DNA of 64,000 nt, taken from the NCBI RefSeq assembly GCF_017310035.1, contig NZ_CP022296.1:1860001-1924000 (forward strand), given 5' to 3'. How positions within the stretch are numbered: position 1 is the first letter of the stretch; each line of letters opens with the position of its first letter. Positions 11,820 through 13,808 of this stretch are shown here, one piece after another. This DNA comes from Nocardioides sp. S5 (GTDB taxonomy: Bacteria; Actinomycetota; Actinomycetes; Propionibacteriales; Nocardioidaceae). Position numbers and translations under genes: made by a program. The notes beneath the pieces are model-generated. The model made no database searches. It had not been told where the DNA came from and saw nothing but the letters and a program-made list of their open reading frames with translations.

Positions 11820-11839
11820 GGCCAGCGGAGACAGCAACA

Positions 11840-11876
11840 GGAGCACCCCCGGCAGAAGCGGCGTCGGGGGTGCTCC
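11840..11876 (+). terminator. Strong hairpin terminator after the RNB ribonuclease
   Basis: A perfect 12-bp stem, 11840-11851 with 11865-11876 (arm GGAGCACCCCCG), around a 13-nt loop. There is no long T-tract, as is usual in GC-rich actinobacteria. Confidence 0.8.
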
Positions 11877-12080
11877 CTCCCGAGCCTGAGTCTATCCCGC
11901 GGACGGGGGACGCCCCCGCGACCCGCTTCTTGAATCGCGGGAGCGCCCATGCCTCCGTTCCCCGACATGCGGGGGTCCTATTCCTGCTACAAACCTTGGA
12001 CGCGTCAGAAACCGAGAACCACCTGTGGCCGGGCTCCTCCACGGCGGTGCGGACTGGCGGGGCCATCTGATGCCTGCGAC

Positions 12081-12124
12081 GCAGGTCAGAGGCTTGTGGG
12101 GAGTGGGTCGGCCTGTAGGCCGGG
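12081..12124. repeat. Distal att-like direct repeat (copy of the rnpB 3' end)
   Basis: Matches 13408-13451 at 42 of 44 positions; the differences are T12094/C13421 and T12108/C13435. Positions 12101-12124 correspond to the rnpB 3' terminus. Confidence 0.85.
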
Positions 12125-12173
12125 GCCGATTCTCGCGTAAGTTGATGTGGTTGGAAAACAGCGGAAATGCCTT

Positions 12174-12193
12174 CTGACCTGCGAAAACGCGAT
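12174..12193 (+). repeat. Inverted copy of the island's right end
   Basis: These 20 nt match the reverse complement of 13397-13416 at 18 positions (core CTGACCTGCG). The right-hand partner overlaps the proximal att repeat, so the pair looks like inverted arm or end sites of the element. Confidence 0.6.
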
Positions 12194-12323
12194 TTGGAGT
12201 GACTGTCTGGAACGGTCGTCCCTGAAGTTCTTGCGAACCGTGTGCGGACTGAATTGGCCTACAGCGGCCTCGATTGAAGGGTTTGCGCGACCTGCGTGGA
12301 CTGCTCAACGGTCCCTTGGAATG

Positions 12324-12344
12324 TGGTACTGCTGGTAGTACCAT
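12324..12344 (+). promoter_or_regulatory. Putative HicAB operator overlapping the hicA -10 box
   Basis: A dyad TGGTACT-N6-AGTACCA spans 12324-12343. The TACCAT box at 12339-12344 overlaps the right arm and ends 6 nt before ATG 12351, fitting a leaderless message. HicB-type antitoxins commonly repress their own operon through such dyads. Confidence 0.6.
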
Positions 12345-12350
12345 GTGAAT

Positions 12351-12596
12351 ATGGCGTCCTTGGCCGATGTCGTCGCTGCGATGCGCCGGAACCAGCAGAA
12401 CGTCGCCTTCAACGATCTCCTCAAGGTGTGCGAGCACTACTTCGGTACACCGCGGCAGTCCGGCACCTCCCACGCGGTCTTCAAGACCCCCTGGCCGGGT
12501 GACCCTCGAGTCAACATCCAGAACGACAAAGGCAAGGCCAAGGCGTACCAGGTGCGCCAGGTCCTCAAGGCAATCGACAAGAAGGAGGCCATGTGA
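12351..12596 (+). CDS. hicA: HicA-type toxin (mRNA interferase)
   Basis: 81 residues, the usual HicA length. The dsRBD-like fold signature is visible: catalytic His in RQSGTSHAVFKTP, then VNIQND and KAKAYQVRQVLKAI. HicA toxins cleave mRNA in a ribosome-independent way. ATG 12351 is preferred to GTG 12345 because the TACCAT box then sits 6 nt upstream and the dyad stays clear of the coding region. The stop overlaps the hicB start, which has AAGGAGG before it. It lies inside the rnpB-linked island, where it may act as an addiction module. Confidence 0.88.
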   Translation: MASLADVVAAMRRNQQNVAFNDLLKVCEHYFGTPRQSGTSHAVFKTPWPGDPRVNIQNDKGKAKAYQVRQVLKAIDKKEAM

Positions 12597-12943
12597 TGCA
12601 GACCGATACCCGCCCCGACGTCTCGCACTACACCTACCGCGTCTCGTGGTCCACTGACGACGCGGAGTACGTCGCGACCTGCGCCGAGTTCCCGTCGCTG
12701 TCCTGGCTGGCAGGTTCTCAGGTCGAGGCATTGCAAGGGCTCGAGCAGTTGCTCGTGGACGTCGTGGCTGACATGGCCGCCGCAGGTGAGCAGGTGCCCC
12801 AACCGTTCGCTGAGCGCACCTACTCCGGCAAGTTCAACCTGCGAGTGGGAGAGAACTTGCACCGCGAGCTTGCGATCCATGCCGCAGAGGATGGTCTGAG
12901 TCTCAACCAGTACGTTGTCCGGAAGCTGACCTCGGCCGGCTGA
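12596..12943 (+). CDS. hicB: HicB-type antitoxin
   Basis: 115 residues from ATG 12596, overlapping the hicA stop by one base (TGATG); GTG 12593 is an alternative. The N-terminal HicB domain (YVATCAEFPSLSWLAGSQVEALQGLEQLL) binds and inhibits the toxin. The C-terminus is a ribbon-helix-helix motif (GKFNLRVGENLHRELAIHAAEDGLSLNQYVVRKL) for DNA binding and autoregulation. The likely site is the dyad at 12324-12343. GAAGGAGG lies 5-12 nt upstream. Confidence 0.9.
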   Translation: MQTDTRPDVSHYTYRVSWSTDDAEYVATCAEFPSLSWLAGSQVEALQGLEQLLVDVVADMAAAGEQVPQPFAERTYSGKFNLRVGENLHRELAIHAAEDGLSLNQYVVRKLTSAG

Positions 12944-13042
12944 GGTAGGAGGCGGCGACAGCGAGTCACCGTGTCGTCAGGTGGGGCTGCTGCACGAGTA
13001 GGTGACATCTGATCTGTGGTGCCAAGAGGTGCCGCTGGAAGA

Positions 13043-13152
13043 ATGTGCACTGTGCCGAAGCCGTATCCCAAGGAGTTCCGTGAGGACGTTGTTCGGGTTG
13101 CCAGAAATCGTGGGCCGGGCGTCCATCTCAAGCAGATCGCTGCCGACTTCGG
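13043..13152 (+). pseudogene. Truncated IS3-family transposase (OrfA) start
   Basis: The first ~36 codons from ATG 13043 read like the N-terminus of an IS3-type OrfA (KPYPKEFREDVVRVARNR, LKQIAADFG). Similarity stops abruptly after ADFG, where sequence antisense to another gene fragment begins. There is no helix-turn-helix remainder, no OrfB and no visible terminal repeat, so this is a scar rather than an insertion sequence. Confidence 0.65.
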
Positions 13153-13277
13153 TACCGGACGGACTTGGTGGATCGCTCGTAGATCACCTCGACCCAAGCC
13201 GCCAGCTCGGCATCGCAGACCCGGCAGACGCCGGCGTACCGGAGCTTCATCTGCTTCTCGTCGGCACCTTCGGACAC
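13153..13277 (-). pseudogene. Truncated zinc-ribbon (NERD-nuclease-like) gene start
   Basis: Read on the minus strand from GTG 13277, about 40 codons give DEKQMKLRYAGVCRVC followed by CDAELAAWVEVIYERSTKSVR. This resembles the zinc-ribbon N-terminus of actinobacterial NERD-domain nucleases as I recall them. The normal second CxxC is missing because the reading runs into the OrfA scar at about 13153. The family assignment rests on recall of that short motif. Confidence 0.45.
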
Positions 13278-13346
13278 CCCGCGACCCTAGGTCGGGACGC
13301 GCCGGTTCGGTGGCGATTCGGGCCGATCGGCGACGGTAGTTGAAGT

Positions 13347-13367
13347 CGCAAGAGTTTTTCTCTTGCG
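13347..13367. terminator. Hairpin inside the island's right arm
   Basis: A perfect 8-bp stem CGCAAGAG/CTCTTGCG closes a TTTTT loop. It lies between the gene scars and the right att repeat and could end transcription from either side. Confidence 0.45.
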
Positions 13368-13396
13368 GACTATCTGCGGACTACAGCGGTGTCGTG

Positions 13397-13416
13397 ATCA
13401 CGTTTCCGCAGGTCAG
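13397..13416 (-). repeat. Right-end partner of the inverted repeat at 12174-12193
   Basis: 18 of 20 positions match in inverted orientation. It overlaps the first nine bases of the proximal att repeat. Confidence 0.6.
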
Positions 13417-13451
13417 AGGCCTGTGGGGAGTGGGCCGGCCTGTAGGCCGGG
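13408..13451. repeat. Proximal att-like direct repeat spanning the rnpB 3' end
   Basis: Bases 13428-13451 are the 3' terminus of rnpB and 13408-13427 its downstream flank. It is the copy that keeps rnpB intact; its partner is 12081-12124. Confidence 0.85.
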
Positions 13452-13808
13452 TTCTGTCCTGCCGAAGCAGGGGCGACCATCCATCTGCGACGACCGTTGC
13501 CGGCCGCCTGGTGCGATCTACCCGGATGCTCGGGCGGGCCGCCCTCGAACACATCCTGTCTGATCTTGCTCCGGGTGGGGTTTGCCTAGCTGCGCCGGTC
13601 GCCCGGCGCACTGGTGGTCTCTTGCACCACCGTTTCACCCTTACCGCCCGGCAAGCCGGGAGGCGGTCTGTTCTCTGTGGCACTGATCCCGCGGGTTTCC
13701 CCGGGTGGCTGTTGGCCACCACCCTGCCCTGTGGAGCCCGGACCTTCCTCGACCCGCATCCCCGACGCATCGGAGGTGACGGACCGCGGCCGCCCGGCCG
13801 ACCCACTC
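13428..13808 (-). ncRNA. rnpB: RNase P RNA (bacterial type A)
   Basis: On the minus strand the conserved P4-flanking motif GAGGAAGGTCCGGGCTCC follows the 5' region, with AGGGTGAAACGGTGGTGCAA in the middle and GACAGAACCCGGCCTACAGG near the 3' end. The first bases (GAGTGGGTCGGCC) pair with the last (GGCCGGCCCACTC) to form helix P1, which sets the ends to within a few nucleotides. Length ~381 nt is normal. The RNA removes 5' leaders from pre-tRNA. Its 5' end lies about 10 nt after the map stop, so its promoter must lie in the end of map or it is processed from the map transcript. Confidence 0.95.

Follow-up and report, generated by a model that had tools for sequence, protein, structure and literature searches.

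A probable tyrosine-integrase element relic at the 3' end of rnpB, the gene for RNase P RNA, in Nocardioides sp. S5

The stretch of DNA analysed here, called the window, comprises 64,000 nucleotides from Nocardioides sp. S5. Its minus strand carries an intact class A RNase P RNA gene, rnpB (13427..13805), which matches the covariance model RF00010 from end to end (281.9 bits, model positions 1-367 of 367), in agreement with an earlier statement that the gene-side copy of the repeat described below restores rnpB. The last 25 nt of the gene and the 20 nt downstream of it (13407..13451, minus strand; the near, attL-like copy) recur as a direct repeat at 12080..12124 (minus strand; the far copy), with 43 of 45 positions identical, the same orientation, and a start-to-start distance of 1,327 bp. 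The first-pass annotation, which had reported a 44-bp repeat of the rnpB end 1.33 kb apart, is confirmed on this point. A chance repeat was considered and rejected. With the far copy excluded, the next-best matches to the near-copy 45-mer in the window reach 26 of 45 identities for its own strand and 27 of 45 for the opposite one. G+C content between the copies, said earlier to be low, is 0.61, as against 0.73 for the whole window. The far copy begins inside rnpB, and no rnpB sequence is found there upstream of the core, as a plain duplication would leave. On one side the locus is flanked by a gene for an RNB-domain ribonuclease (PF00773; 10362..11819, plus strand), convergent with rnpB, and upstream of rnpB by a gene for an M24 peptidase (PF00557; 13819..14667, minus strand), which occupies the same place in G226, G095, G181, G117, G012, G138 and G096 (relatives are given by G numbers, individual loci by L numbers). 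At one base of helix P1 the near copy has G and the far copy A; the A would pair fully with the 5' strand of rnpB, where the G forms a wobble. This difference was tried as proof of which copy is the newcomer and then dropped, since clade members without an element can have G as well, so that this base cannot settle the matter.

Two overlapping plus-strand genes lie between the copies. The first, hicA (12351..12596), encodes an 81-residue HicA-type toxin candidate and overlaps by one base the second, hicB (12596..12943), whose 115-residue product is a candidate antitoxin. HicB is assigned by PF05534 (E 2e-16, 60 bits against a cut-off of 21). HicA falls below threshold with PF07927 (E 0.068, 13.7 bits, cut-off 27) and has no match when the window's proteins are run against NCBIfam and PADLOC, and it takes its name from its 5,744 homologues, several of which, among the 120 matches listed, are named toxin HicA by NCBI. 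A PDB sequence search with HicA and HicB returned no match. The pair, already recognized in the first-pass annotation, resembles type II HicAB toxin-antitoxin systems in its HicB domain, its small HicA-type partner, and its overlapping genes with hicA first; it differs in that HicA stays under the Pfam cut-off. The hicA product is 95% identical in amino acids to its G095 copy, and the hicB product is 92% and 91% identical to its copies in G095 and G226. Once site numbers are allowed for, the differences from the G095 copies are mostly silent, with dN/dS of 0.19 for hicA (a small sample of 12 changes) and 0.10 for hicB (49 changes; 0.13 against the G226 copy). The pair thus looks maintained by selection, the excess of silent changes fitting a retained toxin-antitoxin system, with the small size of the hicA sample to be borne in mind. 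Pfam searches with the seven longest candidate frames of the segment gave HicB, a weak HicA, and weak antitoxin-fold matches, with no relaxase, and, in line with the first-pass annotation, no integrase match was obtained between the copies.

The remainder of the segment consists of gene scars and of what appear to be the arms of an integrated element, here element A. Both scars noted earlier are real. One holds the first 40 or so codons of a NERD-domain gene (13156..13277, minus strand; 89-92% identical to G181, G226, G096, G138 and G117); the part aligning to the relatives' NERD gene covers positions 2-305 of the segment query (2-295 in G226), and the intact G226 gene belongs to PF08378. The other is one end of an insertion sequence (IS), which we take to be of the IS3 family, with the first 36 or so codons of its transposase OrfA (12983..13152, plus strand; PF01527 in an intact OrfA copy, L121); it corresponds to query positions 309-478 and recurs in many genomes, often with identical ends. 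The NERD gene ends where the IS end starts, and the IS end adjoins the hicB flank. Next to rnpB lies the P' arm (13290..13406, minus strand), with two AGTCCGCA repeats (plus-strand TGCGGACT at 13364 and 13375). The P arm, at the far side (12125..12258, minus strand), contains at 12173-12193 an inverted copy of the TCTGACCTGCG-AAACG motif, inverted repeat I6.

When 196 congeneric genomes were scanned with a pattern representing the rnpB 3' end, 147 had a match and 20 of these had two; a reversed control pattern matched in none of the 196. Sixteen of the 20 have both matches in the same orientation, and four have them on different contigs, in opposite orientation. Fourteen of the sixteen, with G217, G226 and G234 added as later finds, form a set of 17 whole two-copy loci spanning 0.86-34 kb; G060 and G107, the latter with its copies on two contigs, lie outside this set. 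A tyrosine-integrase gene or a piece of one is present between the copies in 12 of the 17 (pieces or split genes in G023, G096 and G234). The other five, G025, G093, G118, G204 and the window, show no integrase trace, so that small inserts lacking an integrase are not uncommon, and some of them may be something other than relics. Among the 16 two-copy loci besides the window, none was seen that keeps both copies at the window's spacing without hicAB. Two checks proposed in the first-pass annotation gave positive results. Empty sites with a single core copy exist in G199 (L091) and G162 (L099), where the RNB-domain ribonuclease gene directly adjoins rnpB, ending about 40 nt after it, and larger elements with the same att core and an integrase occur as well. 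Its proposal of site-specific integration at an RNA gene is thereby upheld, and insertion at rnpB is, by these genome comparisons, well supported. In G060 (L081, L082), an integrase lies within 1 kb of rnpB and a stray rnpB-end copy with a similar motif lies 207 kb away; possible explanations are one element of very large size, two separate elements, or a rearrangement.

In several genomes rnpB is followed directly by the motif CTCTGACCTGCG(G/A)AAACG and then by AGTCCGCA repeats. The form TGACCTGC[GA] occurs no more than 45 nt from the rnpB end in 9 of 34 genomes (the relatives with a readable rnpB end, plus the window) versus 4 of 8,214 same-strand background windows. That count excludes G031, where no rnpB was found, and G004 and G020, with short contigs, both of which carry the motif as well. 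The window, G023, G138 and G117 also have the motif in inverted form, about 45-70 bp inward from the far end. We infer that the motif, the repeats and the inverted copy are integrase-binding sites, the AGTCCGCA repeats of the P' arm being putative arm sites. Elsewhere, CTGACCTGCG has 86 occurrences in the window's genome (G000), compared with 26 for a reversed control pattern, and some pairs less than 100 bp apart in opposite orientation (for example C1:1971074 / 1971140; 3628073 / 3628160) resemble the att arms described here.

The 1.39-kb segment was searched in 215 genomes and the matches aligned. A full-length match was found in the window's own genome alone, and hicAB-only matches exist, for example in G205, G076 and G215. 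In G226, rnpB 3'-end cores 22,681 bp apart enclose an element that shares both ends and hicB with the window. Positions 13500-13166 (335 nt, including the NERD start) are 92% identical to the rnpB-side end of that element, the hicB region (374 nt) is 91% identical to its far part, and the 160 nt at the far end (12258-12099) are 86% identical to G226, 90% to G181, and 86% to the distal ends of G138. Between its copies G226 encodes a NERD protein, a helicase, a ThiF/JAB protein, an integrase (PF00589), an HTH_17 protein, a TrwC relaxase, and HsdM/HsdS/HsdR, with HsdS scoring just below cut-off; HicB adjoins the far end of the element, and hicA is absent beside it. One or both ends are common to the window's segment and to G138, G117, G181, G096 and G203, all with an integrase present. 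In G095 a window-type P' arm adjoins rnpB, and another contig begins with a complete hicBA; no P-arm match was found on that contig, and a contig break leaves the far and near ends unjoined. Since G226 has no hicA and the ends in G095 are unjoined, no single relative holds the whole ancestor. Because the NERD gene stops at the IS end, and the IS end abuts the hicB flank, about 20 kb were probably lost between NERD and IS, and the match of both ends and hicB to the 22.7-kb element means that the segment is best read as such an element after an internal deletion of that size. The window's ends and hicB match an integrative mobilizable element with a TrwC-type relaxase, as seen in G226 and G138, whereas the segment itself has neither relaxase nor integrase.

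Outward from the far copy, the window appears to hold the edge of a second, outer element, B. The 78 nt from 12124 to 12047 are 92% identical to the rnpB-side end of an element in G188, with an alignment score reached by none of 2000 shuffles; the corresponding score with G012, reached by 680 of 2000, is no better than shuffles. On this similarity, 12047..12079 (minus strand) is annotated as a G188-like P'-type arm. The overlapping plus-strand interval 11990..12067 may be a decayed C-terminal stub of the integrase of B, a weak match (HLWPGS...AVRTGGAI against HLWPDS...SVRTGGAV in G188) with E 0.003 in a one-sequence search. The 160 bp from this stub to the RNB gene (11830-11989) had no match in 290 loci besides the window's own copy. 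For 14 of the 17 two-copy loci, similarity between the copies ceases after about 25-36 nt and the far flank lacks the motif; the far copy continues into CTCTGACCTGCG again in the window and G234, and G096 is ambiguous. Stray rnpB-end copies running into CTCTGACCTGCG are found in G169 and in a Nocardioides terrigena contig (L231). Because the far copy runs straight into a G188-like arm, the inner element probably entered beside an older one, now nearly lost, and tandem accretion, with A placed between rnpB and the older resident B, is the probable arrangement. The far copy had been described as orphaned. It is indeed a copy of the rnpB end at the far side, but it is not simply orphaned host sequence, as it leads into the arm of B.

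We read 12080-13451 as the relic of a tyrosine-integrase element that inserted at the rnpB 3' end and whose central part, about 20 kb, was subsequently deleted, and we put the probability of this reading at roughly 0.88. In such a history, an integrase would have recombined an element-borne copy of the last 26 or so nt of rnpB with the chromosomal copy, rebuilding rnpB with the incoming 3' end and displacing the old end to the far side; the swap of these nucleotides would leave the ribozyme with a working 3' end. The element would have entered next to the older G188-like rnpB element, as tandem accretion. An IS would have inserted beside hicB, and a deletion reaching from inside the IS into the NERD gene would have removed the integrase, relaxase and restriction genes. 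Retaining both att ends and lacking an integrase of its own, the relic would be mobile only if a matching integrase entered the cell, and hicAB would act as an ordinary toxin-antitoxin stabiliser.

Alternatively, the segment might be an active, selected mini-element, an att-HicAB-att cassette moved in trans by related rnpB integrases and kept by addiction. In its favour, the two cores, the two arms and the inverted motif are all still present, the changes in hicA and hicB are mostly silent, and small two-copy inserts without an integrase recur (0.86 kb in G025, 2.4 kb in G204). We nevertheless consider this unlikely, since two truncated genes meet inside the segment, as a deletion predicts, and the full-length match is confined to a single genome, one that has no close integrase: the nearest relative found elsewhere in it lies about 110 kb from rnpB and shares 40% identity. 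The hicA ratio, moreover, rests on its 12 changes. The minimal att-TA-att cassette of the first-pass annotation is likewise not supported. With ends and hicB aligning to a 22.7-kb element and truncated genes meeting inside, the segment reads as a deletion relic, and is better called a decayed cis-mobilizable element in tandem. A cassette designed for protection was rejected, a deletion junction having been found instead.

A much less probable account makes the far copy a product of slippage or of homologous-recombination duplication of the rnpB end, with the intervening genes marking a host insertion hot spot. It would suit the variability of the rnpB-RNB interval in the clade, where one-core genomes carry different genes, but it sits poorly with a repeat whose starting point in rnpB is about the same in independent genomes, which has the same arm motifs alongside it, and which in 12 of 17 loci flanks an integrase gene or a piece of one. 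The reversed control pattern, in addition, had no match in any of the 196 genomes. Least credible is delivery of hicAB by two IS copies or a composite transposon, with the rnpB repeat coincidental, for the one IS end beside hicB that suggests it is single and truncated, no second IS end appears at the far side among the matches listed, and the outer boundaries are rnpB-end repeats.

The relic would be of a known kind. Cis-mobilizable elements (CIMEs) are defined, in the available part of one review, by loss of integration and transfer genes and retention of attL and attR, in accretion tandem at one target gene, and decay to a CIME together with accretion is described there at other target genes (PMC5704250). 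The segment likewise keeps attL and attR as direct repeats of the target end (43 of 45), with arms preserved on both sides, lacks the integrase and relaxase present in its G226 relative, and would stand in a tandem formed by site-specific accretion at one target gene. It differs in its target, rnpB, and in a unit length of only 1.3 kb; the term RNase P is absent from the portion of the review available (PMC5704250). On these likenesses the segment would be a CIME-like relic.

The association of integrases with rnpB extends well beyond the window. The G226 integrase was searched in 215 genomes of the genus, 56 of which gave a match at E 1e-60 or better. At 61% identity or more to the G226 integrase there are 15 genomes, G226 included, and in all of them an rnpB 3'-end copy lies within 11 kb of the integrase: in twelve, rnpB is on the integrase contig (G226, G138, G117, G203, G026, G107, G176, G018, G012, G188, G087 and G096), and in three the integrase is near a stray rnpB-end copy (G181, G127 and G169). 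G096 and G169 have the integrase gene in split form, and in G087 it contains one stop. Next in identity come the integrases of G197, G211 and G118 (52-56%), which have no rnpB core within the 6.5-7 kb examined; those of G197 and G211 adjoin another sequence, common to both. At 38-48% identity, integrases are placed at rnpB in G172, G084, G060, G081 and G217 and elsewhere in G103 and G157, placement covering the named genomes only out of the 56. A tRNA was sought beside integrases away from rnpB and found in none of 19 loci. For an integrase tree, 53 rows were gathered and 52 used, L201 being dropped for too short a match. The rnpB label needs 8 changes on this tree, at least 5 of them forced by well-supported branches; since the label "other" cannot be trusted for virus contigs that end at the att site, and one such row is identical to an rnpB row, the tree is used solely for the statement that more than one lineage is involved. 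At L281, L282 and L285, integrases 46-56% identical to the rnpB type lie beside other sequences with the same CTGACCTGC motif, as if one integrase family had switched targets and kept its arm motif.

Across named genomes, 60 stretches combine an rnpB-type core with CTGACCTGCG; by motif, rnpB lies upstream in 50, and 19 have an integrase match (1-8 kb examined), 3 of the 19 being pieces of 40-93 aa. The motif may be a conserved flank in several Streptosporangium-type loci, which are therefore not counted as occupied. An rnpB confirmed by covariance model lies near an integrase match in Kineococcus siccus, Planomonospora venezuelensis, Aeromicrobium sp. Root495 and Actinomadura rupiterrae, and also in Nocardioides terrigena, a Nocardioidaceae MAG, and a Jatrophihabitans MAG (cut by a contig end), the integrases having 39-73% identity to the query set. 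Kineococcus, Actinomadura and Aeromicrobium represent three orders, and a second core copy is found 5.9-16 kb away in each of these and 7.5 kb away in Planotetraspora silvatica. Four contigs from a virus collection have a core with an adjacent integrase, and one of them includes a whole rnpB; among 50,697 phage records, none has an integrase at least 60% identical to that of G226. Integrases of more than one lineage target rnpB, and they do so across at least three orders of actinobacteria. The cargo at rnpB loci is varied. Phage genes include a tape measure gene in G012, G176 and G018 and a head protease with a major head protein in G188; the two-copy insert of G118 (L071), with no integrase match, is largely Druantia type II (DruE2, DruF2, DruM2); and the rnpB insert of G093 has, judged by eye, apparent metabolic genes.

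The RNA genes generally regarded as integrase targets are those for tRNA and tmRNA. Islands at such genes, the subject of the Islander and TIGER publications (PMC4383910, PMC12424338), share with the elements studied here a tyrosine integrase, the 3' end of an essential RNA gene, restoration of that gene, and a displaced fragment at the far end; the difference is the target, here RNase P RNA. An integrase tied to the core, as in RNA-gene islands, is seen for 15 of 15 close integrases in relatives and is absent from the window itself. The TIGER announcement, in the portion available, lists tRNA/tmRNA, protein-coding and intergenic site classes and leaves rnpB and RNase P unmentioned (PMC12424338). 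Our literature search found no paper naming rnpB as an attachment site, and an earlier mention is possible; as far as these searches show, what is new is the use of rnpB as an integrase target. If rnpB regularly serves as a third such gene, the 3' end of an essential ribozyme, one strand of helix P1, would be repeatedly swapped by mobile DNA, and such swapping would amount to a natural test of what the RNase P RNA 3' end must keep. The gene would be a new anchor for island finders, at a site that in this genus holds phage-gene elements, TrwC-relaxase elements and defence systems (Druantia, type I restriction-modification), and an rnpB-specific integrase could serve as a genetic tool for actinobacteria. 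The mini-island in the window matters less, as an informative fossil of probable deletion and tandem accretion.

Several further RNA matches were observed in these surveys. At L050 (G010:C24:86293-86647) a second near-full-length rnpB-like gene (245 bits, model positions 12-350) occurs alongside the normal rnpB of that genome. An integrase match of 25-33% identity starts 47 nt past its end, and the rnpB-like gene could be carried by a mobile element. At L069 (G002:C1:2230282-2230498) there is a partial second RNase P RNA match, below cut-off at 68 bits (model positions 20-222). In Planomonospora venezuelensis (L189, 7609-7881), a HEARO RNA (RF02033), just over cut-off at 83.6 bits, lies about 3 kb from rnpB.
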